From NCBI GenBank assembly GCA_026770025.1, contig JAMXDE010000067.1:178105-242104 (forward strand): a stretch of 64,000 bases of DNA. The letters run 5' to 3'. The notes beneath the pieces are model-generated. The model made no database searches, was not told the origin of the DNA, and saw only the letters and a list, made by a program, of their open reading frames with translations. Of this stretch, positions 1-56,767 are shown in pieces (the stretch's first letter is position 1; each line of letters begins with the position of its first letter). A program made the translations under genes and the position numbers. The stretch comes from Craspedostauros australis. Its lineage: Eukaryota > Bacillariophyta > Bacillariophyceae > Mastogloiales > Achnanthaceae.

Positions 1-3000
1 TCATCAGCGTTCGTGGTCTTTGCGTCAGCCTCTGCCTTTTCTTCCTCTTCTGGTTCGGCGTCAGCCTGAATCTCGGCCGAGGGCGCACCATCATCTGCAA
101 CTGCCGTGTCAGTAGTTTCATCTTGGGAATTTTCTGCCTTTTCTTCGTTTTCTTCTTGTTTCATCAGGAAAGGGCTTACAGAGATGTCAACTTCGATTCC
201 CATTTCTTGTTCCATGGCGGGTTCCGACAATTCGTCTGCGTTTGCCTCGCATCCAGAATCCACAGAACGGTTGGCCAAGATTTCGAAGTCGTCTTCGTCT
301 TCGTCATCTTCCTTCTTCTCTTCATCTTCCTCGGGCTTCGCCTCTTGGATTGGGGCGGGAACTTCAGCGACGGGGGTTTCTGCGGTCGGGGCGGAAGGTA
401 CCACAGTTGCAACCGCAGCGGGGGCTGCCGGCCCAAGTTCTTTTTCGTCGTCGTCTTCATCATCGGATGATCTGGTCTCGATGAACGCCCAAGCAAACTC
501 ATCGTCGGACTCTTCGTCTTCCTCTTCGATAGTGTCGAGGTTCCTGTTCATGTCCTCCTCTGCCTTTTCGAGGGTCATGTTGTTGATGCGATCAAAGAAT
601 TTCTGTAGAAGAGTAATGTAGCAAGGAGCAAGCACAATTCGATGTAGAAAAAGCAAGGAGGCGGAGAAAGAACAAGAAGGACGATTGTTCGATGAGGGCG
701 GAGCAGGCCAAAGTCAAACTTTTCAAAGAATAAGGAATGTATTGCACCAAGCTGGGCCGATCATATGCGTAGTGGACAAATGCAACCAGCTACAGTCCAC
801 ACGACAAGACGCTCCAAGCTGCCAACACTGAGTGCAGAATGAGAAGCAGTCCATTTCCAATCCATCGCCCGCAAAGACTGCTCCGATGAGCCCGTTCGTA
901 CCTTGCCTCTCACGAGCGCGTATATGAGAGTGATGTTGGTGTGGTACTGATAGTGGATGATCGTGTTGAAGGTTTGCAAGAGGTGCTCCAGGTACCGGCG
1001 GGCCTCCGCGGCATCATCTTCCTGGTACAGGTATTTGTGCTTGGAGAATTCGCCGAAGATGGTGATCAATTTCATGGCGGTTGTGAGGCTCATGTTGCAC
1101 CAATACGGCGAGATGTTCTGGATGATGGTGAGGAAACCCTCGTACAGGGGTTGGAGTTTGGGGTGACCATCCATCATGCAGTTCCACATCGTGTTTGCGA
1201 TCAGATCATGCTGGGCACCGGAGGTGTTTGGCAGATCCGTGGGGAGTTGGACGGTGGTGGGTTCGCGCAACGCCATGCCAAATGCGCGTTCGCTGCTCAA
1301 TTTGAGCAGGATGAAGGTGCAGAGGTGGACCATGTTGCTGCGGCTGGGGTCCTTGCGCGCTCCATTCATGAGGTAACAGATGGGGATGAGGAGTTCGTTC
1401 ACATCGCGTTGGTTGAGGACGTACGGCAGGAACAATGGGTTTTCCTCCATCGCCTTCCAGAGGAGGATGACCAATTCTTGGAAGCAATTGACCGTGGCGG
1501 CCGATGTAGGAAGGAAAGAGGCTTCAACCTCGTACGAAGTCTTGAGCAGACGCAAGAAACCGTCGTAGAGGAAACTGAGCTCGTTTTCCGTGTCGAGGCG
1601 CGCAAGCAGGGTGCGGTGGATATTGAAACCCTCCTCTTCGGCCTTGCAGTTCTCGACGACGGGGCCTGTGATGCCGTAGATCTGCTCGCAGGATCCTGGC
1701 AGTCCCCAATCGAGGAGAATGCAAAGGAACTGGGCGGATGTTTCAATGAGCTTGACGTGGCTGTCCCTGATCTCAGCCGATGTTGAATAGATGAAGGACT
1801 TGTACATGGCTGGGTCGAAGCCGAAGACAGTGTTCATGAGAGAGTAGAAGAGACTGCTGGCATGTGGGGTGTTCGTTGCCGTGAGCAACGACAGCCATCT
1901 CGATGATGTTGGGTCGTAGTGCTCCGCCGTGCAGTAGATCGGTCCGCAACAAGCGGACATGAGCATTCGCAAGACCTCCATGCGTCGCCTGTCGTACTTG
2001 CGGCGTGAAGGCAACGTCTCGTCAACCTCGACAGCCTTCGTCGATCCGTCGCTCGTCTTGCTGTAGTCATGGCTCTTCGGCGGGGCGCATCCTTCCACAA
2101 GCAAACCGGCAGCCCAGATTTCCGATGGTTCATCCGGTTGCAGCGGAAGGCCGTCATCTACGAAGGTCATCGCATAGTCATCCTCTGGCTTGAGGGCGGC
2201 GAACTCCGGCCGATCGTCGCACCGTTGCTTGAATCGCAAGATGTGGGTCTGCAATTCTTCCTCGTCAAACTCAACGCCAAATCCTCGCAGGAAGAGCATC
2301 TCCATCGCAGCATGGACGATGAGGACTGCAATTGGTTCGTCATCCATGTTGTCCACCACTGCAGCTGCTTCCTCGTCTGCCGCAACGCCAGGTTTGGAAA
2401 TGGTGTCGTCACCTGCATCCGACATGGCCGTGTCGAGCGTCATGCCAATGACGGCGTCTTCTTCTTCCGACTTGGGGCCAGTTGTGTCTGGGATGCCCCA
2501 GCAGAAGAGCTCCACGTTCTCATCGACATCTTCCAAGTCCTCTGAGATGCGTTGCGATGTGGTGCAATGCGATTTTATGTGCACATGTGTTTTGTCGGTC
2601 GGGTTGGTTGGTTAGTTGATTAATGAATTGGCATAGCATAGCATAGCATAGCATGGAGCAGAGTGGGTCGACGAAGTATCGAGATGCACGGACAGAAAGG
2701 GAGATGGGCATGGAGTGGGTATGATGCGTGAGCTGATGAGCGAAGTAGAGCAGATGAAATGACAAGCACAGACGCGGAGGTGGTATTGGCAGAACTTACC
2801 TTTTTCGAGGATGATAGGCAGCATGCGCGTGACAACACGCACGCAGTTGAGGACCTGCTCGAAGAACTTCTCCTCTGGAGTGTGCGAGATCTGGCACATC
2901 TGCGCTGTGGCCTGAGACACCATCACACAGAGGTTCTCAAAGTGTTCCTCCCGCAACGTCCTCGCAAGTTCGGGACGGATGAGCTCGTAGATGTCATTGG

Positions 3001-3118
3001 TGCTGGTGTTGATCGTCCAGAGCTGATCCCAGAACTTCTCATCATCCGGGCTCACATCGGTTTCCACCAGAGTGGTCACCGCGGCCTGGAATTTCTGACG
3101 TGAGAATGATGCTCCCAT
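1..3118 (-). CDS. HID1: HID1 (dymeclin-superfamily) protein, 3' end beyond window
   Basis: Three exons read leftward: 3118-2800, 2541-902 and 602 to the window edge, so the C-terminus is missing. The donors GTAAGT (at 2799) and GTACGA (at 901) and the acceptors CTCAG and CTACAG keep the frame. The start reads MGASFSRQKF, so Gly2 could be N-myristoylated, as in known HID1. The N-terminal pattern (FWDQLW, REEHFENL, LNCVRVVTRMLP, ELFCWG) and later segments (SLMNTVFGFDP, TIIHYQYHTN, ALVRGKKFFDRI) match the HID1 family, which acts at the trans-Golgi in dense-core vesicle sorting. The last exon is an extended Glu/Asp/Ala-rich tail, richer than I would expect for the family. Family assignment is from remembered patterns, not a search. 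Intron 1 carries a GCATA pentamer run (about 2632-2655). Confidence 0.82.
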
Positions 3119-11660: not shown

Positions 11661-11677
11661 TATGTATGATACATCAT
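11661..11677. repeat. Target-site duplication, left copy
   Basis: TATGTATGATACATCAT, identical over 17 bases to the copy at 12428-12444. The two copies bracket the LINE remnant exactly: one lies at its truncated 5' end, the other right after its TTA tail. The site is itself largely palindromic (ATGTATGATACAT). Confidence 0.9.
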
Positions 11678-12427
11678 GCGGTTGCAACAGGCGATGTCGG
11701 AGCAGAAGGCGATAGGGTGGGGAATGATGGTGCGAGGTCGGTGGTCCACGAAGTGGCAGAGAATTCAGGAATGCACGATGGAGGTCCGCGGCCAGCCGGG
11801 AAGGCCGGCCAATTGGATTGCGAGAGCCATGGTAGGGCTATGGGAAGTTCGGCGGAAGGCGTGGATGACATACAGCAAGTACTACACGAAAGTGAGCAGG
11901 CGGCAGCGGTGGCCAAAGTGTCTCAGAAGGCTGCGGATGCAGTAAGAGACGAGTGGCGCCATGGAGTACGAGGGATCAAAGGTGACGACACCAGGCTGCT
12001 GACCCACACAACGGAGGCAGCGGTTCGAGCACAATCGGCAGAGGACCAAATGTTGTGGGTGCGTCATGCACGGGCAGCCCGGCAAGCAGGGTTGCAGCGG
12101 AGTACGGGCGACCTGATTCAGCAACAGCGAAAGCGGAAGGAATATGCGACGAGGCAGGATATGGCAGGTCGCCGGGTTCGGCAGCGGCGCCTTTCGCGAT
12201 GACAGAAAAAGAGAGTGAAGTGCACGATGGCGAGAGCTGATTGCCCAGTGCGGTATGTTTTATGGCCTGTGGAATTGGCAACCCTGCGGTAGACCCAGGA
12301 GTGAGAGATCTAGGTAGGTCGTTCGAGCGCAGCCGGCCCGTCCGGGTTCGCTGTATGCCAGTGACGTTAAAGCTTTCGAGGCGACCCTCGTATGAGGGGA
12401 TAATCTGTGCGTTATTATTATTATTAT
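11678..12427 (+). mobile_element. 5'-truncated non-LTR retrotransposon (element C)
   Basis: About 750 bp holding only the last part of a LINE ORF2 and its 3' UTR. The frame from 11678 reads IGWGMMVRGRWSTKWQRIQE, NWIARAMVGLWEVRRKAW, and after a frame change near 11880 continues as LHESEQ, RDEWRHGVRG, RLLTHTTE, EDQMLWVRHARAAR up to the stop at 12202. It aligns by eye with the C-terminal end of element B ORF2 (IGWDKMVLGRWSRQWRQIQE, KAIRGLWDVRWAAW, LLTNTSEE, EQLAWVRHVVAAR). The 225-bp 3' UTR has nearly the length of that of element B (222 bp) and ends in a TTA run at 12412-12430. Flanked by a perfect 17-bp duplication, so this is a bona fide insertion; the frame change makes it a dead copy. Confidence 0.9.
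12348..12398 (+). other. Three stem-loops in the 3' UTR of element C
   Basis: Stem 1 at 12348-12364 (TCGCT, loop, AGTGA), stem 2 at 12372-12382 (GCTT, TCG, AGGC), stem 3 at 12385-12398 (CCCTC, GTAT, GAGGG), followed 13 bases later by the TTA tail. The same three stems stand at the same places in element B with different but still pairing bases, so the RNA fold, probably the recognition site of the reverse transcriptase, seems to be what is kept. Confidence 0.75.
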
Positions 12428-12444
12428 TATGTATGATACATCAT
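12428..12444. repeat. Target-site duplication, right copy
   Basis: Second copy of TATGTATGATACATCAT, directly after the TTA tail of element C; its first TAT may be shared with the tail, so the true duplication is 14-17 bp. Confidence 0.9.
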
Positions 12445-15266: not shown

Positions 15267-15998
15267 CTAGTTTGTCTCCTGCTGCATTTCCTCCCACTGT
15301 AATTGTTGTATTTGTTGTAGTTGTTGTGTCTGCTGCATTTGCTCTTGCTTGTATCGCAACGCCTCGCGCTTCCACTGATTCTCTGTGCGGAAGCGTTCGA
15401 TGGTATCGACTCTGAGGAAGGTTCCGCCATTCTCCTCCATGTGTCGAAAGTCGACTTGGTATCCATATCCGCACAGGTTGAGAACGAGACCGAGCGAGAG
15501 GAAGGCACCGAGGAAGATGGTGGTGTATGTCCACGCCTTGTCAATGACATCACCGACGGAACGTAGGATTGATTTGATGTCAACATTCTTTTTTGCTTTC
15601 TTGATTGCATTCTGGTCATTGTCTTGGTTGCTCTTGCCCTCGTTGCTGTTTCTGCGAGTCAGTTTGTCCTGATTGGTCTGATCCATGCTGTCTGCACTTG
15701 GATCATGTCTGCCGTGATCATTCTCATCATCGTTAGATCCGAACAGTACCAACGGTGACGGTGTTGCTGTTGCTGTTGCTGTTCTTGATGAAAATGATGG
15801 CAGTGATGTCACATCAATCAAGTGTGTGCACCTTGCACTGGAACTGGCACTCGAACTTGCACTCGAACTTGCATTTGTGAATGCTGTCGCTTTGGCTGTC
15901 GGTGATGGCGACGCTGGAACGAATGCTGCTTGGATCGACTGGGCCGCAGCCACAACCATGACCGCTGCCATCGCAGGTACCACCTGGGTTCTCCTCAT
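15267..15998 (-). CDS. Plastid-targeted single-TM protein, unknown function
   Basis: 243 codons from ATG at 15998; the frame runs further upstream but has no earlier ATG, and this start places a signal peptide first. The N-terminus is MRRTQVVPAMAAVMVVAAAQ then SIQA-AFVPASPSPTAK: a hydrophobic core, an Ala/Phe cleavage motif and a Ser/Ala-rich transit peptide, the bipartite plastid signal of complex red plastids. After an Asp/Asn-rich linker follow a basic stretch (KKAKKNVDIKSI), one membrane span at about 175-197 (TTIFLGAFLSLGLVLNLCGY), then a charged conserved-looking segment (VDFRHMEENGG, DTIERFRTENQWKRE) and a Gln-rich end. It is probably an integral plastid membrane protein. I do not recognise the family. 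Confidence 0.72.
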   Translation of the reverse strand: MRRTQVVPAMAAVMVVAAAQSIQAAFVPASPSPTAKATAFTNASSSASSSASSSARCTHLIDVTSLPSFSSRTATATATPSPLVLFGSNDDENDHGRHDPSADSMDQTNQDKLTRRNSNEGKSNQDNDQNAIKKAKKNVDIKSILRSVGDVIDKAWTYTTIFLGAFLSLGLVLNLCGYGYQVDFRHMEENGGTFLRVDTIERFRTENQWKREALRYKQEQMQQTQQLQQIQQLQWEEMQQETN

Positions 15999-16845
15999 GA
16001 TTGTTGCCTTTGCGACCACTCCAGCTGAAGCTTCGTTCGTCTTCACACCACTACTTGCAGCACTTGTAGAGTGTGTGAGGAGAGTACCATACAATTATAG
16101 TACGTTTATGGATAGGATCTTCCTTGTCTCACCCTCTCGTTCTTTCTCTCGCTCATTCCCTCTCTCTTTTGGTGCGCCATCATCCCCACCCATGTGAGTC
16201 ATCGCAGAGCATCATCGTCCGTGGATACTCCTCACGCTTCATGTTGTGTGGTGGAGCTGCACGAGTACTTGTCACGTGTATCGTGGTCGTACCGTGTATT
16301 GTTCCGGAACTTTCTTTCGTGTTCTTTTGTCTGATGTCTTTTGTGTGTGCCAACTCGTGTTTGAGCATTTGTGTGTTGTTGCGAAGGCTGACGTCATGTG
16401 CGGTGGCGATCGTGGTGATGATGACCGACTTCCACGACTAAACAGACTGCTTCACACCCCACCAATCAACGGCGAGCATCGAACATGACTCGACCATGGC
16501 GACCACACTGACCATTCAAACCGTGATGACACGTCAGAAATCAACGTCATCGTGACATCTTCCCTCCTTTCGCGATTTCATGATGACGTCAAATGTTGGA
16601 CAACACACGAGAAGGATCGCACATTTTCAAGATCCGTCAAAACCCATCAAACCACTCACACCACATTTCGCGATTCTCTCTCGCGCGCATTTTGTGCATC
16701 TCCACAACGCACATCCTGTACCAATACTCCATTGTTCTTCGTCGCCCTGTTTCATCATCTCTTCATCCCTCCACTTTGTCATAAACTCACAACCCAACGG
16801 CAATCCAACCCAACCCAACCCAACCCAACCGCAACACATTACAAC
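15999..16845. promoter_or_regulatory. Divergent promoter region of two plastid-protein genes
   Basis: 847 bp between two start codons facing away from each other. Just before the right-hand ATG stands a run of the pentamer CCAAC/CCCAA (about 16803-16831) that would lie in the 5' leader. Both products carry near-identical plastid presequences, so shared light or plastid-linked control is plausible. No core promoter element was identified with confidence. Confidence 0.5.
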
Positions 16846-18336
16846 ATGAAGTTCACGAGCCAAGCTATCGTCCTTGCGGCCTCTGCCCTGATGGCAGGCA
16901 ACCAGGCTTCCGCCTTCGTCCCAGCCTCCCCATCCTTCGTTGCCAAGAGCGCTGTCGCCCCAGTCGCCCCAGCAAGCCTCGTCAGCAGCAGCCGCCGCAG
17001 CAACGTCAACAATGACCTCCTCTCCACCACCATCTCCAGCTCCACAGCCCTCAACATGGGTCTGATCAGCAAGCTGTTCGGAGGCGAAGATGACTCCGTC
17101 GAGGTCACCGAGGGCAAGGTCGTTGCCCCACAGGAGATCAACGAGGAGCAGGTCCGCAGCCTCTTCACCCTCTGGAACGACGCCCTGGCCACCGGAGACT
17201 CCCGCATCGTCGCCAAGCGTTACGCCGCCGATCCAGTCCTCCTCCCAACCGTCTCCGACACCCCACGCACTGACTTCGGCTCCATCAAGGACTACTTCGA
17301 TGCCTTCCTCCTCAAGAAGCCACAGGGCAAGGTGGTCGATGGCAACATCCGCATCGGACACAACTGGGCACAGGACAGCGGCATCTACGAGTTCACCATG
17401 GGCGCCGACGGCTCCAAGGTCAAGGCCCGCTACACCTTCATCTACATCTACGAGAACAACCAGTGGAAGATCAGCCACCACCACTCCAGCATGATGCCGG
17501 AGGAGATGGTGAGCCCAGAGGCCATCACCGAGGATGAGGTCCGCGGACTGTTCGGTCTGTGGAACGACGCCCTCGCCACCCTCGACTCCAAGAAGGTCGC
17601 CAGCAGGTACGCCAGCGAGGGAGTCCTCCTCCCAACCGTCAGCGACACCCCACGCGTTGATTTCGATGGAATCGTCGATTACTTCGACGCCTTCCTCCTC
17701 AAGAAGCCTCAGGGTGAGATCCTCGAGAGCAACGTGATCGTGGGCACCAACTGGGCTCAGGATGCCGGAATCTACGAGTTCACCATGGGCGCCGATGGCT
17801 CCAAGGTCAAGGGTCGTTACACCTTCATCTACGTGTTCGAGGATGGCGAGTGGAAGATCAGCCAGCACCACTCCTCTGTCATGCCGGAGGGCATCCCAAC
17901 CTCCCAGCCAATCTCCGAGCCGCAGGTGAAGAATCTGTTCTTCCTGTGGAACGACGCCCTCGCCACCGAGGACCCAATCGCCGTCGCCAACCGTTACAGC
18001 AAGAACGCCGTCCTCCTGCCCACCGTGAGCGACGTGCCACGCACCGACCGCGATCTGATCGTGGACTACTTCGAAGGCTTCCTCAAGAAGAAGCCACAGG
18101 GTGAGATCCTTGAGAGCAACGTGATGATGGGCAGCGACTGGGCCCAGGATGCTGGCATCTACGAGTTCACCATGGGCGTCGATGGTTCCAAGGTGAAGGG
18201 CCGCTACAGCTTCGTGTACGTGTTCGAGGATGGAGCCTGGAAGATCGCCCACCACCACTCGTCGGTGATGCCAGAGGGCATCCTCGGAGAGTCGCCGAAG
18301 CCTGCTGAGAAGGAGGTCGCCGCTGCCGAGAAGTAA
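16846..18336 (+). CDS. Plastid-targeted protein with three tandem SnoaL/CaMKII-AD-like domains
   Basis: 496 residues from ATG at 16846, where a signal peptide begins (MKFTSQAIVLAASALMAG, then NQASAFVPASPS, a textbook ASAF motif). The mature part has three copies of one domain at about 95-223, 226-348 and 354-480. Each has LWNDALAT, VLLPTVSD, DYFDAFL or DYFEGFL, LKKPQGE, WAQDxGIYEFTMGxDGSKVK, RYxF and HHSSxMPE. This is the pattern of the SgcJ/EcaC, DUF4440 and CaMKII-association-domain branch of the NTF2-like fold. Codons are strongly biased to C or G endings, unlike neighbouring genes, suggesting very high expression. The function in the plastid is unknown; a carrier or assembly role is only a guess. 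Confidence 0.85.
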   Translation: MKFTSQAIVLAASALMAGNQASAFVPASPSFVAKSAVAPVAPASLVSSSRRSNVNNDLLSTTISSSTALNMGLISKLFGGEDDSVEVTEGKVVAPQEINEEQVRSLFTLWNDALATGDSRIVAKRYAADPVLLPTVSDTPRTDFGSIKDYFDAFLLKKPQGKVVDGNIRIGHNWAQDSGIYEFTMGADGSKVKARYTFIYIYENNQWKISHHHSSMMPEEMVSPEAITEDEVRGLFGLWNDALATLDSKKVASRYASEGVLLPTVSDTPRVDFDGIVDYFDAFLLKKPQGEILESNVIVGTNWAQDAGIYEFTMGADGSKVKGRYTFIYVFEDGEWKISQHHSSVMPEGIPTSQPISEPQVKNLFFLWNDALATEDPIAVANRYSKNAVLLPTVSDVPRTDRDLIVDYFEGFLKKKPQGEILESNVMMGSDWAQDAGIYEFTMGVDGSKVKGRYSFVYVFEDGAWKIAHHHSSVMPEGILGESPKPAEKEVAAAEK

Positions 18337-33182: not shown

Positions 33183-35415
33183 CGTTGCCTTTGCTTTTGA
33201 TTATAATGTGTTCGTGCTAATATGAATGGAATACCAATGCTCGTCGTGGTACTTGTAGTTGCAGGTGTCTTCGCAGGGTGCTTCTATCGGTCTGCTCCTG
33301 GAGTGCTGTATCACCTGTAGTAGCACTTGATGCACAATCAGGAGAGCGTGGATTGAGAATTGTGGATTGGGCACCGAATGATGGCTTCACCAGCTCGTCG
33401 TATTCGATCTATGCACAAACCCAGAAGAGCCCAAAATGGACACAAGATGGCAGAGTCGTCTCCCTGAGGTCGATGTCTTTCTGATCTTTGGCTTCAGTTG
33501 CCTCCTTTTCCTTTCTGCTTTCCAATGACAACTGCCCAACGACACGTTCGTTGGCTTTGCAATTTTATGATCCTGTCGCAAGTCGTGTTCTTTTGTTCCC
33601 AACAATCATCAACGCCACCACTGACCACAGCCACGACCACAACGACCAACTTTGACGGTTACCGTTACGGTCAACCTCGCGCAGACACGCCATCATCGGT
33701 CTTGTTACGAGCAATAGCGGTATGCCCAAGTGAGCGATGGATCGTGCTTCCTTCCTTGAGGCGTCACCGGCGCGACTGTTCTCGTCTTGGTCGTTTTTGA
33801 TTCGTGCAAAATGCTGTCTCCGTTTCAAAAAGTCCAACTCTCTTGGTTGCACATTATGGCGGTAAAAAGACGTTAATTCGTGTGGTTGATCACGATTCAA
33901 ACTGCTATCGCTTCTCCGTTTGTTTCGCGGGAATGACACTGGTTCCAGGCGATGCACAGACCAAACAATAGACAAATTGTGAATCATACATACAAGGACC
34001 TCGTGGGTCACTGATCCGTTTGTTCACGATTGTTTCAGTCGGTGTGGTCAACCGAAGATCGGACGGAACCAAAATGCAAACCAACATGATTGGAGTTTAT
34101 GCTGAGAGCATTGCGTCAGGCCTCAGGTTTACTCTGGAAATATAGTAGATGCGGAGCAGAGCAGGTACGACCACCATAAAGATTGGAACGAGTTCTGGCG
34201 CGGGTCCTCCGCGAGTGTGGACGTGGAACATTGCAACGAGGGAAACGAGAGTGTTCAGCAAGTGCTCTCCTCTGTGTGTACAATAACTGCGACACAGGCA
34301 ACTTCACCAACTTGGAAGTTGACACCGACATCAGAAGATCTTGTTGACGTTGACACGCGACAATTGGCGAACGTTGTCATCATGGTTGATTCGCAGTGGT
34401 CGCGAATCAGAACTGTGCGAATGGTTGACGTCATCAACCCAACGCGTCACGAGCTCCTCCAAGAAGACCTCTTGCTTGACATTTCTGTTTCCGTAGACCT
34501 CTCACGAAGCAAGACACCTTCGGCACATGCATCTCTGCGGTATACGATAAATTCCATCTCTCTGAAGGATGGAAGAGGAAGAAATCATGTACTCTAGCCA
34601 CATTTTAAAGTGATTTCCTAAGATTGAGCTCTTTCCAGAGAGGCGATTTGATTGTGTTGAGGACAAAGGTTCTCCTCTATCTCTCAGGAGAGAGTCTGTG
34701 TCTGTCTGTTTGTTCGAGTCGATCGAACGAGTCGACTGAAAGATTCCTTTTTGACATTTTGGACAGGTGTCATTTTGCTTGTTGGATTTCTTGTGTCTGT
34801 TCGTTTCGTGCTGTGCTTCTCGTCGTTGTTCGTTGTTCGTTGTTCTTCTCCAAATGGGGTTGTTGCTGCTGTTGGCGTTGTTCTTGTTCTTTGTTGTCAT
34901 CAACGCTTCACTTCAGATGGCGGAAGAGTGCAGAGCAAGTATTGCGTGGACGAGCTCCGCCTTGGGCAGCGCCGCTGTTTGGGGGTATTGCGTTAAGTTC
35001 TGTCGTGTGTGCAGTGGACCAGACGGAGACGAAGAAGAGGAAGACACAATCCGTGACGAATCGTCAGGATCACCACTAACATCAACAGGAGCAAACACAA
35101 TCAACAGAAGACGGAGTTCGCACCGCATCCGTCGCCCATTCAACGCAACAGCAAAGATCGGCAGCAAGGTGCGAGTGCGATGCTGCAGTTGAATCCGCAA
35201 CGCTGTGGATGCTACGAGCAGTCTGGAGAAAGCTGAAGCGGATTCGACGTCATCGATCCTCTCACACTCCTTCCGTCACTCACACACTCGCTCACTCACT
35301 CACTCACTCACCCATGCATCTGTGCTTGCCGTTGCATTCTCTACCTTCTCCCTGCCCATGGTACTCAATCCATACATACTCGTACTCATGTGCACACAAA
35401 ACCTGGCTCCTCTGA
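33183..35415. other. Intergenic, nothing recognised
   Basis: 2.2 kb containing only short overlapping open frames without domains. A CACT/CTCA run lies at about 35276-35312. The promoter of the membrane-protein gene should lie at the left end and that of the HNH gene at the right end. Confidence 0.5.
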
Positions 35416-46063: not shown

Positions 46064-46202
46064 AGAGTGCAATGACGAACGAGCCCGCCACACCATGCAC
46101 GTGCTCAGCTCGTAGAGTACATGCTTTAGCTGCAGTTGTCCTAGTAGCTCATTTGGCATCATACCATTATAAGGGAACAAACAAATAAATAAATAACTCA
46201 AT

Positions 46203-46274
46203 GATTAGTCTCTTAATCGACTGCGCCGACGGCGCTTTTCTCCGCCCCTTTTCAACTGCCCGCTACGCGGGCAG
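46203..46274 (-). other. Hairpin cluster in the 3' UTR of element A
   Basis: Three stems in the last 100 bases: CTGCCCGC/GCGGGCAG with a 3-base loop at 46256-46274, GCGCCG/CGGCGC around one base at 46223-46235, and GATTA/TAATC at 46203-46218. The TTTA tail begins 8 bases after the last one. The layout equals that of elements B and C although the sequence does not match. Confidence 0.75.
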
Positions 46275-46308
46275 AGGGCACGGAATCTGAAGTGTTGGGT
46301 TGAGTTTC

Positions 46309-49300
46309 TCATGTATTCTGTGTAGTGGGAGTGGGTTGGCGACCGGCCGACTTCCTGCGGCTGCTGCTGGCCCGGAGTTTGATCCACTTGAGCAGTGCCC
46401 CGGAGGCCACCGCCGTGCGTAGTCGAGCTGCAGTTTGCTCTATCCACACCAGGTGCGCTTCAACCGGGAGGTCGTCGGAAGGGCGGGTAGACAGTTGGCG
46501 TTCATGCTGGCCCGGTGCACGCCTGAGCTGCTCCTCAAGGGAGGCTGTCCTGGCGCGTACTGCAACCTCCATAGCACCTTCCGCCGAATCTTCGTTGTTG
46601 AACATGTCGTCGTTCCTGGAAGCCCACTGTAGCCAAGCGATGAGCCAGATGCGTCGAATCACCTGTGCCGCCCACTTGAGGGGGGACTTTTTGGAGCCGC
46701 TCGCCTGCAAAAAGGCTGACTGTGCCTGACGCCAGTGCGTGACCAGAATCCCTCGCCGCAAGGACTGGGGGCCCGCGGACGACTGCTGTCGCACTGCCTC
46801 TGCTAGCTCGGCACCCGCGTTGAACGGGATCAGGCAGTGGGTACCTCGCGCCTGGCTAAGCAGCAGCTGCATCATCACCTGTACCATTGTGGGGTGTGTT
46901 GGGTATGCCAACAGCCACTGACGGAGCTTCACCATCTGCCCGTCGGCGATTGTCGCTCGAGACGGCGATTGGCATGTCCAGAAGTGTGCCGTCGTCTCCT
47001 CGCTCGTACAGCTTGGGCATTGGGAGGAGCTGCGATGTTGCCACTGCAGCATTCTTCGCCCGACGGCTGCCTCGCCAGTAACCAACTTGAACGTCAGCGT
47101 TCGTTTGTTACGGTCCAACGCCTTCATGGCTCGGCCAGAGGCCTCCCAGTCGACGCTCCCCGTGTTGGAAATCACCTTTCGTTTGGTCAAAACCCGCATT
47201 GTTGCCTCCCGCATGTGCTGGCCGGCTATTGAGTCATACGACACCGCCGTGACCTTGTGCGTGAGGAACAGTGCGACTCTCTCCCCTTTGATAATGCCTG
47301 AATATGGCTGCTGCCGCTGGGTTTGCCGCTGGCACGCTCCGGCGAGATGGTCAGCCTCCACATTGAGCCTGGCCCACCGATCCAACCGATCCCACGGAGT
47401 TCCGTCATCCTGGTGGCCTTTGACGTGCCTCCCTCGTATTTTGATGCTCAACTCCTGGCATCGGGCTCTTACTGCGCGTTGGAGATCAGAGTCCGTAGTC
47501 CCCGGGTTCAAGTACCAGTCGAGGTCGATAGCATTCAAGGCGCCAGTGTTGTCGCACGCCACCGTGACGCTGCCTGCTTGTATTGCATGCACCCGGCATA
47601 TGGCATCGAGCATCACCAGCACGCTGTACAGCCCCGCGAGCTCAGCTCGATGGGACTGCATCACGCCGTCGGTGGCCGGAGTCTGTCCCGCGATCCACAG
47701 CTTCGCTGATCGTCGACCGTCAGATGCCGATATCACTGCTCCAGACGCCCCGTTGCCGAACGCTACTGATCCGTCGCTGCAAGCTATCGCAGTTCCCTCC
47801 CGGATAGCTGTCGCGAAGACATCTTCTTCGCCAACGACGTCCCAGTGCTGCACTGCCCACTTCTCACCGGCTTCCATCTGTTGCACGGCGTCTCGGAGAT
47901 TCGCGGGCGGTGTAAGCCGCATCGAAGCCACCCCATCGGCCGATGCCGTGAGAACCAGTTTGTCCCGGCGCATATAGCCGTCCGCCAGCTGATTGCCGAC
48001 CGTGGTCGCCACCCCTGACGGTTCGTATTCCTGGACTCGTCTGCGCCTCGGCGCCCGCCGGTACTCCATGTTGCTGTGGGTGTGCACTACCCTGTCTGCC
48101 TGATCGTCTTTTCGGAGAGTCGGGACTGAGGACGAGAAGCACTTCCACCGACCCAACGCCGGCTGTATGTAGCGCAACCCAGGGCGAGACGCTGGAAAAC
48201 ATTTCCACACTGCGTTCTTCCACATCCTCCACTTCGCCGCGCCTGGCGGACCGACTGGTGGCCATGCGATATTGGAAGATCGCATGGGTATTGGACCGGG
48301 CTCCTCTGCGCTGGGATGCAATTCCCGGCCCCCCCACGCGTGCTATGTCGGATATCCAGAAGACTTTCTTGGCGATTCGGCATTGATTGATGGCCTGCAT
48401 ACTCCTCGCGTCGAACCCCATTTCGCTCAGGCGCCGCATGATAGGCTCGTCGCCTTCCCGGGGGGGAGAGATCACCGGGTTTTCCATTGCCAAGGTCAAG
48501 CCCAGGTGCTGGAGTTCCTGCCACACACTTTGGATCCATGTGTTGGTTGTGATATGCTTCCACTTGTCCCAGTCCTCGTTGTAGAACTCGGGAAGACCGA
48601 CCTGAAGCGCTACTTGTTCCACTGTGTTGCGGAGCAGCTTCCCTGTGAGAGTGGGCTGGCCCCAGTGCCGTATAATCATGTCGACGTGTCGCGTGGTTTG
48701 AGAGTAGTAAAGATGCGGTACTCCCATGCCCATTGTCGCTGCTGGCCCGTAAACCAGATCCCTGGATACATTGCGCTGCACTCCTGCCGCCGGCAATGCT
48801 GCCCTTAGTGCTGGCCGCATGATGAGCTCCGCTTCGAGCTTTGAGAAGGTGGAGCTGGCTAACGGGTACTCGATGGTTTTCCAAATGGTTGCTTGAAGTG
48901 CCACCCACGCCTGATGCCTCTGCAGTCTGCTGCGCCCGATCTTATCGGCCCACTCTTGCGACTTCTGAATGTAGTAGTCAATGTTGCTTGCCTGGACTCC
49001 ATCGTGTCGTACCATGACCCCCAGCGCTTTTCTTGCCTGGTGGACTTCAAGCCTGGAGAGAGTCGCTCGCGTTTCCTGATCCGGCTTTCGTATGCTGATG
49101 GATCCCGGAAACTGCTCCGTTGGCACGTACTCCCATGTCTTCTCGGACCACTTGAAGGAGAGCAGATACCAATAGCTTTTGGACGGCTCCAACGCGCCTC
49201 CGGTAGCTCGCAGCATGCCTTCCCAGGCGTCGACCACGGCTTGTATCTCTTTCATGCACCCTATCTTGTCGCCAGGGTTCGTTCGGAGGGTGTGTATGAG

Positions 49301-52165
49301 GTCCGTATCGTCAACAAATGAGAAGCAAACCAGCTTGACCCTCTCGCGGGACACTGGACTGATTGTATTGAAACCAAAGCCTTTCGCCGACATTGCCTGC
49401 ATCAGCGGAGAACTCATGGCCACCCACCCTGCAGGTGATATGCCCAGCCCTTGCAAGAGCCCTTGTAGTTTGCTGCCACCGGTCGGGTATGTTGTGGAGG
49501 ACACTCCGTAACCTGTGAGAACGTGGTGCTGCATGGACTCCACTGACTGTATCACTCCCACGGAGAGGTGGGTTGGAACCCCCAAAGCTGTCATGCTGAG
49601 CAGAAGAGGAACATGGGCCATTCGGTCATAGCAGCTCTTTGCGTCGTTGGAGCAGATCATGGTGGTGGATGCTGTGAGTCGGATAATGTCGTCGGTGAGG
49701 CGGTTGTTGAGGCTGACCTCCGCGGCGCTCTTCTGTTTCCTGCTGCCGTATTGTTCCTCCGGTAGCAGAGATTGCCGTTCCGCATGACGCATCATTTCTC
49801 GTCCGATCCACTTGAGGTTGGCATTGAAGTCGCCTTCCACCAGGCTTATGGTACGGAAGCGATGCACGCGGTAGTTCCCGGCCTCTTTGAGCAATGTTAC
49901 GTCGGTGCACCGCAGCCACCGCTTGAGGTTGTACCCCGTGAGAAGCGAAATCTCGCGCATAGCCGCATCGACGCTGGCCAGCAGCTCGTCTTTGGCGTTG
50001 GCCTTCCATAGACCAAAGTGTAGTCCGGACGGGCCGGAGGCAGTTCGTTCCCTTGCCTTTGACCACTGCTGTTGGTGATCCTCCACCGTCAGTGTCAGCT
50101 GCTCTGGCTGCCATGGAGGCGCTGCTCCAGATTGCTGTAGCTGCTCGAGAAGCATAAGTGAGTGCTCGTCGAGGTCGTCAGACGACCGCAGGACGCCTGT
50201 GGCGCCGGACTGCATTGCCGCGGCTTCCAGATGCGTGCGTTGCAGTGGGGACGCGTACGCCTGCCTGTACTTGCCTTCGTTGGCCTTCATGCACGCCTGT
50301 ATGACTGCGTCCTCCCCGTCTGCGATGGTTTCTTCCCCGTCATCTGACGTCTCGATGACCATGGTGACTTTGCCTGCGTCTGCATTGCCGATAGCTTGTC
50401 GGATCGCCTTGAACGTCTCGACTGTCTCTTCGCGCTTCATGATCGCCACCAGAGCCGCCGCCGCCTTTTGGTTGCCGGCGAGGGCCTGTTCGTCTGCTCT
50501 TTCTTCGAGGAAGCTTCGTCGGTGTTGCAGCGCACTCTTCTTCACCTCGAGCCATTCCTTGTGGGCTGCCTTCCTGGCCGTGTCGATGTCGTCGTTTGTC
50601 ATGTGTGATGTTGGTTGGCTCACCTCGGCTTGTCGTTTGGTTCTATCATAGTACCGGGCGCTCACCTTTTTCCCGCTTCTTCGTTTCCACGCCAAGTCCC
50701 AGAATTTCTTTCGCAAGGCAGTTTGCTTGATGTGCGGCGAGTACGGGACCCGCCCCATGAACACTTTCCTCGATCCCTTTTCTGCGGCTCGCATAGCGTT
50801 CGCTCGGATGTCGTCGATGGCTTCCATTTCTCGTTGGCCCTGCAAACCGATAGTCTTGTGTCGCTGGACCGTTTTCCATAGCTCATGCACTCTTTGAGGG
50901 AGCCCTGTACTGGCGTATGCCGTGCGGAGGTTCGACTGGTATTTGGCCACTGTCTGTGGGAGGTTCATCCGTAGCCGACGACCTTCAAATTTCTTGGCCG
51001 GCTGGCTTGATGTCCCGAACAGGTCTTCTGCTTCCACGTCGATCCATGCGGTGCGGTGGTCCCAGCGGCCGAAGCTGCTGTAGCCTGCTCGCACGACGTG
51101 AATCGACTCCGACACCCATATTCCGTCGATCACCCTGTCTGACTCCGACCTGATGTGCGTCGCGGCCTTGGGTGTGTCAGCGTGTCGTGACAGAATTGCC
51201 TCCTTGAGGCCTTGTTGTCGCAGCATGGTTGCCATTTGGGACTTTTCCACGGGCATGTTGATGTCCCCGCCTATGATCACCGTTTGGTTTTCAGATCGCC
51301 AACCTTCGATGGCTGCCTGAAGGTCCACGAGAAGCTGTTGTATTGGAGTCTTGTCGTACCCGTTGGCTTCCAGCCATGATGCCTGTTGGTTGAACACTGT
51401 GCCAGCGCCTGATCCCCCTCTCGTCGGAACGTAGACGCTTACTACTCTGATGGAGTTGCCTCTCTTGCCGTTCAGCGTCATGCTAGTCCACCTACCAAGT
51501 CCTTTGGGGTCATCCTGCCTGGATCGAAATCTCCCAGCTGGGTGGCCCATGGCTAGACATCCTGTCCCGCCCCATTGTCTGGCAGTGCCCAGGGTCTCGT
51601 GTCGGTTGTATGCTAGTGAATGGCGTGCTTGCTGAATGTAGTTCTTCGTGCGCTCTTTCCAGGAGTCAGAGTTCGATACTTTCGACCAGTTGATCCCAAT
51701 TTCTGAGAGCATGGCCACATCGATCTTCTCCTGCTTGAGCCACTGCCATAAATCCTTATTCTTCCAGTGTCGACCAAGCTCGGGGAGCCCCCCTACATTC
51801 AGAGCAGCTAACCTGATACTGGACGTACTCTTGTTGAGGGTGGTGTCTCCCCATTCTTGGTCGTGGAGGCTTCGCTCATCGCGACCCGAATCCTCCTCCG
51901 ATGCACCCATTGGGCTTGCAGGAGCGGGTGTTGGTGCTTCCCTTACTCCCAGCCCTTGGCTAGTCTTTGGATCCTTCCCTGCTCGTGCTTGAAGCAGGGA
52001 CGTGCGGACGCTGATCCCCTTCTTTTTGGGATTGTAGCTCCGCAATGATTCGATCGAGTTCGGCAATCCGCTTGGACTGTTCTTGCACAGTCGTGCGGTC
52101 TTGTTCTGCCTGGTGCTTGGCTCGGACCTCCTGAATGGATTTCTCCACTTCGTTGGGTTGCTCAT
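46309..52165 (-). CDS. Element A ORF2: endonuclease, reverse transcriptase, RNase H; frameshifted
   Basis: Starts at ATG 52165, inside ORF1. An APE-type endonuclease covers about residues 115-375 (IRLAALNVGG, MLSEIGINW, VIIGGDINMP, SDRVIDGIWV, RWDHRTAW). The reverse transcriptase covers about 640-1010 (LPEEQYGSRK, SNDAKSCYDRMAH, GLLQGLGISPAGW, FSFVDDTDL, with FVDD in place of YADD). The frame itself runs on to 47864, but homology moves to the +1 frame near 48330, at a run of seven G on the coding strand. There follow RNase H (ACSDGS, SHRAELAGL, ACDNTGAL, HVKGHQDD, NVEADHLAGA: the DEDD residues are all present), and a finger CPSCTSEETTAHFWTC, to the stop at 46309. Either a mutation, a sequencing error in a homopolymer, or recoding. 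Confidence 0.9.
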
Positions 52166-54410
52166 CGGAAGATTCCGGATGGCTGCCTTGGGTGGTCGCC
52201 TCGGACTCCGGAATGCTGTAGTTGGTTGAGGTCATCGACCTTCCAATGGCTGTTCCGAACGAGAAGAATGACGCGTCTTCGAGGTTCTTTCTCTTGGGCT
52301 TTTCTTCGAGTAGGAGGTCGCTGAGACCTTCGATCACCAGCTTCCCCATGTCTTCGTCGACGATGTAGTCCAGCGTGTCTTCGGTGTCCTTGTCGACGTA
52401 GTCACCTTCGGGGGTTCTCACCATCCCGCTGCTGATCTCGACGACGTCCTCGGAGAACCAGTCCAGCGTGGAGTCGTTGATTTCCTCTTTGCACCTGATT
52501 GCAATGGAGTTGATGATACCTGTGGCTTTGTCGTATCGCTCGTCGAAGGCGACCACGTGGATGGCGTCGTTTTGTCCGTCTGCCATGTGTGTGGTATTCA
52601 CATCGTGGATGTAGGGATTGCCTTGCTCCGTGGTTTGGGTTGAGAGGAACTGGCGTAGAGTGGTCTGCTTGGTGCTGGAGTCTGCTTCATCCAGTGTAAA
52701 GTCCCCTTCCAGTGTGAACCCTCGTAGGCTTCGGACATAACTGATGTGCTTTCGCACCATTGCCCTGATCTTCGTGGCTGTCTTGGCTCCCAGGATGGTG
52801 GTCCCTGGATTCGGCACGTAGCGGTAGTTGAGTCCGCCTCGGTCGGCGTTCTTCGCGTTGAACAGCCGCCCCAGTGCTTTGGTCGCCCGCCTGGCATGTT
52901 TCAGCTCAGCATGCAGGTGGAGCGCCGCCCATGGGACGTTGATCCATCGCCCGCCATGCTGCTGGTGTAGCGCACGCTGAGCGTCGGTGACCTTGCCCAT
53001 TAGCCTCACCTTCCCGCCGACCTGTACTCCCAAATTCCGCTCTCGCAGCATTTGGTTGATGTACCGGACCGTTTGTTTTGCGTTGGTGAAGTTACCTGAG
53101 TAGGCTAGGAACCCGATTTCGGTGGTGGTTTCCGCGTCGCGCAGATCAGCGATGGAAGCGAACTCGCCTTCGCCGTAGGCTCCCTCCATTTCCGAGCGTC
53201 GGTGTGTGAACACTCGCATGTCGAGGTTGGATGCCATCGAGATCCTGCAGTATACTTTGTCGTCGGTGGACTTGGGATCTGCTCGGCCCACGAAGATTCT
53301 GAATTCGTCCCAGTCTTTGGGAATATCATTGGCCGTGACAATGCAACCTTGCTTTTTGTGTCGCTTGTACCACGGGTGGATGACGAGGGTCTTGTCCATT
53401 GCTCTGGCTCTGTCGTACCACAGCTTGAATCGCTTCTTGAAATCGTGCCTGGGCGTCATGGACCCTTTTGGGATCAGGAATCTCATGTTGAATCGCTCTC
53501 TGTACCTGCGTCGCGGGCCTGAGATGTTGGTCAGCTTTTCTGCGCCACTGACCGACCATCCTTTCCTTTGTTCTTCTGCGATGGTATCGGTGTCGGGCAT
53601 GGGTACTGCTGGGCTGATGGTGACCGTGTTCGACTTCTTTTTCAGTGGACTGCCAGTGCTGTTGGTGTGGCTCGCAGTGTGGGCTGTCATCGACGTCTGT
53701 TTCAGGACTCCCTTCCTTTTGTTGGCGAAGGTTGTCAGGTCGTACTCTTCTGTTGTCTCCATGTCGTCATCCGAGTCGACCTCTGGCGGCATGAGCTCTT
53801 CCGGGTATTGGCTGCCCAGGTAACTCACAGCTGCAGACCACGCAATTGTCATCTGATTCCTTGTCAGAGTCTTGTCTCCGTCCTGCAGTTCTCCTTTGAA
53901 GCACGACTTTGGCTCGGTTTGTGCCAGATCCGCGATTAGCTGTTTGATCTTGACTCTGGCTGGATCGTCAGTACTCACTTTCTCGGACCCGAAGTTGGTG
54001 GTTCTTCCGTCCATCACTGTTTGGAAGAACGCCGCGAGGTCCTTGATGCGGGGGAGTTCGTTGGAGATCGTCGCTGTGTCTCGTCCTTCCCATCGTGCCT
54101 TCTGTGCCAGCATGCTCTTGACCTGGTTGTGCATTGAGTGGTCGCCTTCGCTGTACACCTCCGATGCCTTGAACCCGTCTGATTTCTCCGCCACGTCTTT
54201 GCGGATCTTTTTCCACCGCGCGCTGTTTGGCTCTTTCCACTTGGTGGGAACCTTGTTTTGTTTCTCGAACAGTGCCATCTCGTCTTCAGCAGGATCCGGC
54301 TCCGGCGGTGGTCCCGGAAGCTGATCACGCCCATCGGTGGTGGCTGCTGCGTTGCTGGAGCCGTTGCTTGGAGGGTGGTCGTTCTGCGTTACGATTGCTG
54401 TTGGCGCCAT
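51960..54410 (-). CDS. Element A ORF1 protein, 816 residues, no zinc knuckle
   Basis: ATG at 54410 (MAPTAIVTQND) to TAG at 51960. It overlaps ORF2 by 206 bp in another frame. A Pro/Asp-rich start is followed by charged, mixed sequence. There is a central part (RFNMRFLIPKG, IHPWYKRHKKQGC, FLAYSGNFTNAKQTVRYINQ, KVRLMGKVTDAQRAL, RWINVPWAAL) that loosely resembles the PLGIRMRMVTP region of ORF1 of element B. The C-terminus has a coiled coil (VEKSIQEVRAKHQAEQDR, SKRIAELDRIIAELQSQ). No CCHC knuckle and no RRM that I can see, so this is not the usual ORF1p. It presumably binds element RNA. Confidence 0.78.
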   Translation of the reverse strand: MAPTAIVTQNDHPPSNGSSNAAATTDGRDQLPGPPPEPDPAEDEMALFEKQNKVPTKWKEPNSARWKKIRKDVAEKSDGFKASEVYSEGDHSMHNQVKSMLAQKARWEGRDTATISNELPRIKDLAAFFQTVMDGRTTNFGSEKVSTDDPARVKIKQLIADLAQTEPKSCFKGELQDGDKTLTRNQMTIAWSAAVSYLGSQYPEELMPPEVDSDDDMETTEEYDLTTFANKRKGVLKQTSMTAHTASHTNSTGSPLKKKSNTVTISPAVPMPDTDTIAEEQRKGWSVSGAEKLTNISGPRRRYRERFNMRFLIPKGSMTPRHDFKKRFKLWYDRARAMDKTLVIHPWYKRHKKQGCIVTANDIPKDWDEFRIFVGRADPKSTDDKVYCRISMASNLDMRVFTHRRSEMEGAYGEGEFASIADLRDAETTTEIGFLAYSGNFTNAKQTVRYINQMLRERNLGVQVGGKVRLMGKVTDAQRALHQQHGGRWINVPWAALHLHAELKHARRATKALGRLFNAKNADRGGLNYRYVPNPGTTILGAKTATKIRAMVRKHISYVRSLRGFTLEGDFTLDEADSSTKQTTLRQFLSTQTTEQGNPYIHDVNTTHMADGQNDAIHVVAFDERYDKATGIINSIAIRCKEEINDSTLDWFSEDVVEISSGMVRTPEGDYVDKDTEDTLDYIVDEDMGKLVIEGLSDLLLEEKPKRKNLEDASFFSFGTAIGRSMTSTNYSIPESEATTQGSHPESSDEQPNEVEKSIQEVRAKHQAEQDRTTVQEQSKRIAELDRIIAELQSQKEGDQRPHVPASSTSREGSKD

Positions 54411-54450
54411 GGTCGATCTTTTTCGTATCCTTCTACGCAAAAGTCAGTAT

Positions 54451-55194
54451 GGTTTCTACAGGTGTCAGTGAAGCAATTTGGTACTCTGTGATTGTGATTT
54501 TTGTGTTCGCTTTTTATTTGTGGAATTCGGATTTTATATAAGAGCCCGATCAGTGAGTCGACCAATCGTTTGAAATGAAGAGTCTAATCGGATTTCTGGG
54601 ATTTTCAAACTAAGCACATATTCGCAATCCTTGTAGTATCTTTATGTACATGTCACCTTTTCAGGTTTTAGTAAAGCTTATTTTACGTTTTATGCACCGA
54701 TCAATGTGTTCATTCTAGTCACGTGGATCCAACCACATAAAACTCGTTGGTAGTTGTCGAAGGTTCTATGATGTTCTCAAGTATTTATCGTCAGGTGGTC
54801 AGTCACGGACTAGCTCCCGAAGGTGTCGGTGGTTTGGTACGCGTTAATTACACGTTAGCATGTGCCACAGGATTCCACATTCTGGTCGTCACAAAGCACA
54901 TGACACAAAACCCATCACACAAAACACATCATCTCCATCATTTCGCAAAATCTCACCACACGTTCGCTCCATGTCACAACTTTCCTCGCCAATGCCATGC
55001 ACACTCGCCCTTTCGCTCAATGCCCGTTGTCGTCAGAGTAGTAGTAGCAGTAGTAGTAGCAGTTGTTGTTGTTGTTGCTGTTGCAAGCTGGTTTGCCTTT
55101 CATCGGATGCTCTCCTTGCTCACTTCGTCTCAGACCAGTGCACACCATCACATCCACCTGGCAAACCACACTACTCTCCACCAACAATCCCACC
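54451..55194. other. Region between element A and the unknown ORF
   Basis: 744 bp that should contain the 5' end of element A (leftward) and the promoter of the ORF at 55195 (rightward). It holds AT-rich DNA at 54500-54680 and a GTAGTA/GTTGTT run at 55037-55080. No gene. Confidence 0.5.
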
Positions 55195-56568
55195 ATGTTT
55201 CCCTCTGCTGCTGCCAAGGCCCTCTCCAAGGATGCCAACCCCTCCCCCAGTAAGAAGCCGCGTTCTGCTCGCCCTGCATCTGCTCACCCTGTGCCTGCTC
55301 CTCCTGTCGATTCGAAGGGGTTCCTGTTGCCAACCGCCAATCAGTTGTTGTCTGGCAAGCCGTCCGCTACGTTGAGGAAGCCGAGCACCATCACACGAGT
55401 GATTGATGTGAAGCCGATGCATGCAGCGGATGGCGGCCTCGTCCCGAACGGTACGCATGCGCACGCTCGTGAGCTGCATGTGTTCGTCCACATCCTAGAC
55501 AGCAACGGAGGCGTCTTTGACGACTCCCATGTCGAGGTGCGGTCGGAGGGACGAGGTGTTGGCGATGGAACAGTGGTGAGCGTTTTCGTGAACGCGCCAC
55601 CCCCGCCTGCTGCACCTGACGTTGCACCACCTGTCGAGCCTACCCCGCCAGCTAGGCTTCCCCGCCAATGCAATACGATTGTTGCTGGCCGCTACGCAGA
55701 CACCTCCAATGATAGCGACAGCACGTTCATTGACGAGGAGGAAAAGCAGACGCACGCCGGCTGGGGCAGGAGGGGCGGCAAGTTTGAGTGTGACCCGACA
55801 GAGGAGGGCAGCTGGAGGCATGATGCGATCGCTCGTGTGATGGCGGAGCTTGGATCTAACCTAGATTCAAAACTGTTGCAACTCATGCCAAAGAAAGGGT
55901 TCGTTCTCACAGGCAGACACGATCGGACCATCTGGAGCTACATCAAACAGGTGTGGAGTGTCGCATCGTGTGCACTTTGGAGTGTCCTGCTTCCAGAAGA
56001 GGGTGTGCCAACTTGTCAGATGGAACAGGTGGTTGCATACGTACGCGACAATGTGGAACTTCCTCCAACGATGTTGGCATCCAATCTCTACACTGTGGGC
56101 TTGCTCGGAGAAACTACGTCATCCCGCACAGTTAGAGCTGCTCTGGCCATGTCTGCGCTACATGCACTGTGTACTGCTATCCTGGGTAGGCATGCACAAG
56201 GATTGTCGGAGGAACAGAACGCCCGCATGCTTCCCAAACGCGACATCATCACGCAAAGCCAGGCAAGCACCTTGCGTCGCTACTTCGACAAGTTGAGTCA
56301 CGGCGAAATCGTACCTGCGCGAGTTCTTCAGTACCGTGTGGGTGCCTGCAATCTCTCTGGTGTGGTGTCCTTCCTCATGAACACAACTACGTACAAGGCA
56401 GGGTTGAGTCACACGGTAAAGTATGGTGGTGTCCAATTTGAAAATGTCCCAGTGTTCGATCGTGGAAGCACCACCATCCGAGACTTATTCGGCATGTACT
56501 CGTCAACGACTAACAACCCAGTGGGAAGGCCCGCCTTCACCACCATTATAATAATAATAACTCACTGA
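55195..56568 (+). CDS. Unknown protein, 3' end replaced by the tail of a LINE
   Basis: ATG at 55195 in a good context (CACCATG) starts 457 codons; the frame also opens upstream without an ATG. The N-terminus is Pro/Ala/Ser/Lys-rich (KKPRSARPASAHPVPAPP), then an acidic spacer, then a globular-looking part (HDAIARVMAELGSNLDSKLL, HDRTIWSYIKQVWSVA, TSSRTVRAALAMSALHALC, VLQYRVGACNLSGVVSFLMN). I recognise no domain. The last codons (Ile run, Thr, His, stop at 56568) are read from the TTA tail and 3' UTR of element B, which lies on the other strand. The frame is intact right up to the insertion point at 56545, so the original C-terminus is probably beyond the LINE, past the window. Confidence 0.6.
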   Translation: MFPSAAAKALSKDANPSPSKKPRSARPASAHPVPAPPVDSKGFLLPTANQLLSGKPSATLRKPSTITRVIDVKPMHAADGGLVPNGTHAHARELHVFVHILDSNGGVFDDSHVEVRSEGRGVGDGTVVSVFVNAPPPPAAPDVAPPVEPTPPARLPRQCNTIVAGRYADTSNDSDSTFIDEEEKQTHAGWGRRGGKFECDPTEEGSWRHDAIARVMAELGSNLDSKLLQLMPKKGFVLTGRHDRTIWSYIKQVWSVASCALWSVLLPEEGVPTCQMEQVVAYVRDNVELPPTMLASNLYTVGLLGETTSSRTVRAALAMSALHALCTAILGRHAQGLSEEQNARMLPKRDIITQSQASTLRRYFDKLSHGEIVPARVLQYRVGACNLSGVVSFLMNTTTYKAGLSHTVKYGGVQFENVPVFDRGSTTIRDLFGMYSSTTNNPVGRPAFTTIIIIITH

Positions 56569-56573
56569 CTATC

Positions 56574-56624
56574 CCTTGCGCACAAGGTTGCCTCGAAGGC
56601 TTTATAGTCGCCTGCATACGGCGA
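56574..56624 (-). other. Three stem-loops in the 3' UTR of element B
   Basis: Coding-strand order: stem 1 TCGCC/GGCGA at 56624-56608, stem 2 GCCT/AGGC at 56600-56590, stem 3 CCTTG/CAAGG with loop TGCG at 56587-56574. The TTA tail begins about 13 bases later. They match the three stems of element C at the same spacing. Confidence 0.78.
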
Positions 56625-56767
56625 GCCTAAACGGCCGACCGCGCAAGAACGACTTCTATAAGGATCTCACTTCCTCATCTTCCACTGTTTGCCATCACCA
56701 TGGGTCACATAGAACATACCGCACTGGGCACCCGATTCCACATCCGCCGTGCTCTTCACTAAAATCA

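Follow-up and report, generated by a model that had tools for sequence, protein, structure and literature searches.

Two LINEs in the window, the whole 64-kb stretch of DNA analysed here, have 3' ends that keep a set of RNA hairpins paired across their sequence differences. Constraint at the RNA level on this shared end of the elements, named B and C, is well supported, and from two sequences it is not proven. The last ~100 bases of the LINE RNA would fold into a long hairpin I, an A-rich spacer, hairpin II with a 3-base loop and hairpin III, and on the 3' side of the hairpins would stand the motif TARTCNNTGNG and then a TTA-type repeat tail. By analogy with other LINEs, this is probably a 3' end of the stringent type, in which the conserved fold and the motif would mark the RNA as template for target-primed reverse transcription.

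Element C (11678-12427, plus strand) is a 5'-truncated LINE copy of 750 bp that holds the tail end of ORF2, the 3' UTR and a TTA tail, (TTA)6, at 12412-12429 on the plus strand. It lies between the copies of a 17-bp target-site duplication, the left at 11661-11677 and the right at 12428-12444, which agree at 17 of 17 positions; the flanks show no further match, and the first two bases of the right copy possibly belong to the tail. C is a genuine LINE insertion, as the 5' truncation and the duplication indicate. Its coding part matches ORF2 of B in two frames, with 42.6 and 46.4% amino acid identity (tblastn).

Element B (56546-63998, minus strand) runs off the window and encodes ORF1 (62571-63998, minus strand, open at the 5' end) and ORF2 (56768-62755, minus strand, stop to stop). 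Its tail (56546-56560, minus strand) has four TTA units, then TAA. A third LINE, element A (46192-54443, minus strand), has ORF1 (51960-54443), an ORF2 (47864-52231) that contains the RT and matches an endonuclease weakly, and a downstream part (46309-48342) whose frame differs from that of the RT part, all on the minus strand. No convincing target-site duplication of A was found in 54301-55300, where the longest match is 8 bases. The RT part of A and the part that matches the C-terminal part of B ORF2 lie in different frames, and in B there is a single frame. The split in A may reflect either a decayed copy or a frame change that the element uses. In A as in B, ORF1 overlaps ORF2 in a different frame, by 272 bases in A (51960-52231) and 185 bases in B (62571-62755), measured stop to stop.

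The Pfam family RVT_1 matches A with 40.7 bits, above the cut-off of 29.6, and B with 28.4 bits, just under it, and the RT stretches of A and B are 39% identical. Endonuclease matches in A are below cut-off (Exo_endo_phos_2, E 6.5e-5; Exo_endo_phos, E 1.2e-4), as are zf-RVT matches in B (E 0.0014) and A (E 0.076). B gave no endonuclease domain match in Pfam at E up to 1, and neither A nor B an RNase H family match at that limit. Both elements have motifs that look RNase H-like by eye, without a Pfam match. A search of the PDB with B ORF2 gave no match at E up to 0.001.

The 3' ends of B and C align without gaps over 63 columns that start at 12348 in C and 56624 in B, and they differ by 19 substitutions, 8 of which fall within 28 stem sites. 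The first-pass annotation had drawn three stems here, with three double changes and no lost pairing, and both its letters and its count are borne out: all the stem letters are present in the sequence, 14 of 14 pairs are standard in B and in C, three pairs differ on both sides, two differ on one side to give G-U, and none is broken. Stem 1 keeps its five pairs (5/5) through one C-G to T-A and one G-C to G-T change. Stem 2, which is hairpin II, keeps 4/4 with one C-G to T-G change, and stem 3, which is hairpin III, keeps 5/5 with a T-A to C-G and a G-C to C-G change. B and C are more conserved at the 3' end than at the coding end, with identities of 68/95 in the last 96 columns, 136/198 in the UTR and 272/530 at the coding end.

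Hairpin II (12372-12382, plus strand, in C; 56590-56600, minus strand, in B) has 4 pairs and a 3-base loop, with predicted pair probabilities of 0.37-0.65 for C alone and 0.77-0.94 for B, the values for B here and below coming from folds of its last ~140 bases. Since it holds only one B/C substitution, hairpin II gives no covariation from this pair of elements. Hairpin III (12385-12398, plus strand, in C; 56574-56587, minus strand, in B) has 5 pairs and a 4-base loop, carries two double changes between B and C, and is predicted with pair probabilities of 0.94-0.95 in C and 0.93-0.94 in B.

Hairpin I emerges when more upstream context is given: the consensus fold then swaps stem 1 for this longer hairpin, and hairpins II and III remain. 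It has 17 pairs in the B/C consensus (RNAalifold, 130 and 96 columns) and spans 12318-12365 (plus strand) in C and 56607-56653 (minus strand) in B. On the outside GTCGTT pairs with RGYGAC, and on the inside GCGCRGY..GG pairs with GGYTCGCYGTATGC; all pairs are kept between B and C (17/17), with one double and four one-sided changes. In B the inner 11 pairs have predicted probabilities of 0.78-0.99 and the outer six 0.98, 0.98, 0.98, 0.97, 0.46 and 0.15. In C alone the inner pairs reach 0.55-0.75 for 7/11, 0.34 for the two basal pairs and 0.0 for the two tip pairs, which shift register, and the outer six pairs are at 0.0. Stem 1 (12348-12364 in C) has a pair probability of 0.01 in B and 0.16-0.23 in C; B prefers the longer hairpin, which re-uses both stem 1 arms, and in C the preferred form is the inner part of that hairpin, where only the 5' arm is re-used. 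The main structure is thus probably hairpin I in place of stem 1, so that two of the three stems proposed at first, II and III, stand, and stem 1, at 0.01 in B and about 0.2 in C, was probably mis-drawn. An enclosing stem of B, GACTAT/ATAGTC, was dropped when its pairs were seen by eye not to be kept in C.

The terminal motif lies just 5' of the tail in C, where it reads TAATCTGTGCG (12401-12411, plus strand), and has counterparts in B, TAGTCAGTGAG (56561-56571, minus strand), and in A, TAATCATTGAG (46197-46207, minus strand). The pattern TARTCNNTGNG followed by TTATT has exact matches at three sites of the window, which are the three LINE ends from which TARTCNNTGNG was itself derived. When 34 TTATT sites were scored against the B motif, A matched at 9/11 positions, and no site other than the three LINE ends did better than 6/11.

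A has a long hairpin (46241-46284, minus strand) in place of hairpin I, with an MFE z of -3.63 and P 0.002 of 500 for the 80 nt upstream of the motif. With 500 shuffles the 3' end of A gave P values of 0.002, 0.004 and 0.01 for 80, 100 and 113 nt, and 0.27 for a 60-nt piece, a length that cuts the long hairpin; a separate run gave z of -2.79, -0.81 and -4.05 for 111, 81 and 131 nt. A hairpin with 5 pairs and a 3-base loop (46223-46235, minus strand) is near register with hairpin II, its loop lying 23 nt from the motif versus 25 in B and C. In shuffles, a hairpin of this kind that is no more than 3 nt out of register arises with P 0.03 for at least 5 pairs and 0.08 for at least 4 pairs.

Model searches rank A low. 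A covariance model of B and C, run on both strands of the window with filters off, placed A third of four matches at E up to 10 (11.3 bits, E 4.7), and a sequence-only model placed the A end sixth of 16 (5.1 bits, E 1.8); neither match is significant. In a three-row alignment that includes A, 97% of 66 cells pair and 10/26 pairs are changed on both sides, in an alignment that was fitted to the model and in which B and C are paired by construction. This pairing was reached by 0/500 shuffles, and slid structures pair at 33-50%. In the row for A, 12 letterless cells were set aside and 12 of the other 14 pair. Because the alignment leans towards the structure and the match of A is not significant, the three-row result is supporting and not independent. 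The claim that A carries a different set of three hairpins holds only in part. The shared tail motif and the near-register hairpin with the 3-base loop led to rejection of the idea that A is wholly unlike B and C, though the model matches are not significant. A search of the 64-kb window for a partner SINE found that model and motif match only the three LINE ends, plus weak matches.

The element's own ORF2 protein would bind the fold and the motif, bring the repeat tail to the nick in the target DNA and start target-primed reverse transcription there. The fold can be taken as a template mark because stringent-type LINEs usually have a conserved fold and a motif directly next to a repeat tail, and the earlier suggestion that the LINE RT recognises such a 3' structure is, by analogy with studied LINEs, the best reading. 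A basic stretch between endonuclease and RT, common to B and A near B residues 472-511, is a candidate RNA-binding site only; it is 35% identical, K or R make up 9 of 40 residues in B and 12 of 40 in A, and it is unexceptional along ORF2, where RT windows reach 53% identity.

The fold may instead be selected for another step (3' end formation, RNA stability or export, for example), with an RT of the relaxed type that needs the TTA tail only. The sequences speak for conserved pairing alone, and priming could come from the tail repeats by themselves, as it does from poly(A) in L1. The conserved block nevertheless adjoins the repeat tail, as does the recognition element of stringent LINEs (PMC4176376, PMC3747384), and it is the motif closest to the tail that A has in common with B and C, which makes selection for another step rather unlikely.

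Template marking has studied parallels. ORF2 of ZfL2 binds the 3' stem-loop with the region between endonuclease and RT (PMC4176376). A 3' stem-loop is taken as the template mark in UnaL2, ZfL2-1 and ZfL2-2, as proposed for B and C, but these elements have a single stem-loop, which is recognised in bipartite fashion through its stem and its loop, whereas the present LINEs have a hairpin set (PMC4176376). Binding (in ZfL2) and retrotransposition were shown for the UnaL2/ZfL2 group, in contrast to the present end, which is known from sequence alone (PMC4176376). As in UnaL2, the structure adjoins a repeat tail, which in UnaL2 is TGTAA (PMC3747384). The last 45 nt of a monocot L1 lineage are far more conserved than the rest and include a hairpin with compensatory mutations (PMC3747384). 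B and C resemble these L1-clade LINEs of maize and sorghum in their conserved 3' end, their compensatory hairpin changes and the short conserved sequence on the tail side, and differ in having a hairpin set and a TTA tail where the monocot LINEs have one putative hairpin and ~50 related nt (PMC3747384). Compensatory changes in a LINE 3' hairpin are already published for plant L1 (PMC3747384). The present case adds one structured, covarying LINE 3' end and leaves the accepted picture of LINE template choice unchanged.

The tails and RTs of the present LINEs are also like those of the I element (I clade), with TAA/TTA-type repeats, and RNase H-like motifs in A and B were seen by eye only. The I element ends in TAA repeats (PMC3747384). 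Ends of the (ATT)n or (TAA)n type occur in LINEs of both green plants and green algae, among them RandI and L1 families, and the ATT/TAA-type tails of the green-algal members are like the tails here, a likeness drawn from description and not from sequence (PMC3747384). In Chlamydomonas, the LINE L1-1_CR and the SINE SINEX-3_CR form a pair with a common 3' end of ~80 nt (PMC3747384). A composite model of hairpins I-III, TARTCNNTGNG and the repeat tail can be searched for in genomes, for further copies and for SINEs that borrow the end.

Absence of structural selection, with stems shared by descent and matching changes due to luck or to the reader's selection, is improbable. With the structure fixed and the 8 stem changes placed at random, all 14 pairs are kept in about 0.02-0.03% of trials. 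Since this structure was picked after looking, the search for the best common hairpin set was repeated on null pairs of three kinds, 20,000 each, obtained by random mutation in B, by random mutation in C or by shuffling of the columns. These nulls cover the choice of stems inside the 63 columns and not the choice of this stretch. The nulls reached 14 pairs in 0.08, 0.17 and 0.09% of cases and the observed score of pairs plus doubles in 0.015, 0.020 and 0.025%, and these search-corrected P values of 0.0002-0.001 argue against luck. The consensus energy argues the same way: RNAalifold gave -17.3 kcal/mol for the 63 columns versus a shuffled mean of -6.1 (z -4.44; 0.002 of 500 at or below). Control windows do so as well, and are mild ones. 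Among 655 overlapping 63-column B/C windows wholly outside the last 96 columns, some of them gapped and thereby lower in score, the best score was 6 versus 20 observed; among 829 gap-free codon windows of A/B ORF2, which are more diverged, it was 10 versus 20 observed, and none had 14 pairs.

The 96-column consensus keeps 26/26 pairs, with 3 double and 5 one-sided changes (RNAalifold). Its energy was reached by 0/2000, 0/2000 and 0.8% of 2000 nulls, and 26 pairs by 1.4, 2.4 and 6.6%. The number of double changes alone is ordinary, with at least 3 in 21, 21 and 36% of these RNAalifold nulls, and so is the folding of each single sequence against its own shuffles (z -0.14 and -0.11 for C; -0.58 and -1.08 for B); both favour the absence of selection, as does the small sample, with two clearly alignable 3' ends (B, C), or three with A. 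Taken singly, with the structure fixed and the search not corrected for, the hairpins retain every pair by chance at P 0.003 (I), 0.03 (III) and 0.26-0.33 (II), a spread that also leans towards luck; when at least the observed number of doubles is required as well, P is about 0.002 (I), 0.009 (III), 0.26-0.33 (II) and 0.04 (stem 1). The first-pass annotation had called the double changes direct evidence that an RNA fold is selected. The pairing does go beyond search-corrected nulls and control windows, and the term is too strong for two sequences.

Hairpin I and stem 1 may also be two states of one RNA, a proposal that is compatible with template marking. The shared arm TCGCY (12348-12352 in C) would pair either upstream, in hairpin I, or downstream, in stem 1, and its C-to-T change is matched by a G-to-A change upstream and another downstream, so both alternatives keep their pairing. 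The double change first reported for stem 1 is real in its downstream match, and the upstream match to the same arm had been left uncounted; it is ambiguous because hairpin I re-uses the bases of stem 1. Both states are predicted to be populated in C (0.68 versus 0.23 for the pairs at that base), but stem 1 is at 0.01 in B, and all three changes are transitions, of which one could plausibly match by chance with two sequences. Two kept states are therefore quite improbable, and equally so a switch that could take the RNA from a form that is translated to one that is reverse-transcribed.

Template switching between short inverted-repeat arms, a process at the DNA level, would yield double changes without selection, but it is very improbable here, as each stem has just 4-5 pairs and the one-sided changes produce G-U in the RNA sense (2/2 in the stems first drawn), which such a process does not favour.

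The longest identical run of the UTR alignment is an 18-base block, TGCCCAGTGCGGTATGTT, at 12242-12259 (plus strand) in C and 56730-56713 (minus strand) in B, ~40 bases past the stop codon in both 3' UTRs. Searched as 17 bases with up to 3 mismatches, this post-stop block was found only in B and C, and A is without it. IMG/VR had no match to the 18-base UTR pattern or to the B ORF2 protein, and its RT alignment gave 81 pattern stretches and no relative. The one IMG/VR match to the hairpin II pattern fell in a viral contig of 128 kb (L001), within an ORF of 407 aa. It was rejected as chance: blastn of the contig to the window at E up to 1 finds nothing beyond those 19 bases in B and C, and the contig has no tblastn match to A or B ORF2.

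GTDB gave 64 pattern stretches and one relative, a 3038-bp contig filed under a Nitrospirae genome (L002; PIVU01000306.1). Positions 1-3038 are a LINE relative in one open frame with 40% identity in the RT, and being open throughout in that frame it has no 3' UTR. L002 is most likely eukaryotic DNA in a bacterial bin, and by eye it also has the basic stretch seen in A and B. No further 3' end of the B/C kind was found in IMG/VR or GTDB. Rfam, searched with the whole window at E up to 1, had no match at the 3' ends of A, B or C and one weak match at 35215-35328 (27.1 bits versus a gathering score of 100). Searches of open-access papers turned up no account of this LINE 3' end.

The green-algal LINEs belong to green plants, whereas the present host looks, by eye, like a secondary-plastid alga. 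The peptide AFVPASPS occurs in ORFs 15267-16094 (minus strand) and 16489-18336 (plus strand), in each after a signal-like stretch near the presumed start. The peptide resembles plastid-targeting leaders of algae with red secondary plastids, and the host probably belongs to these algae. In the second of these ORFs, 16489-18336, a domain of roughly 120 residues also appears by eye to occur three times in tandem.
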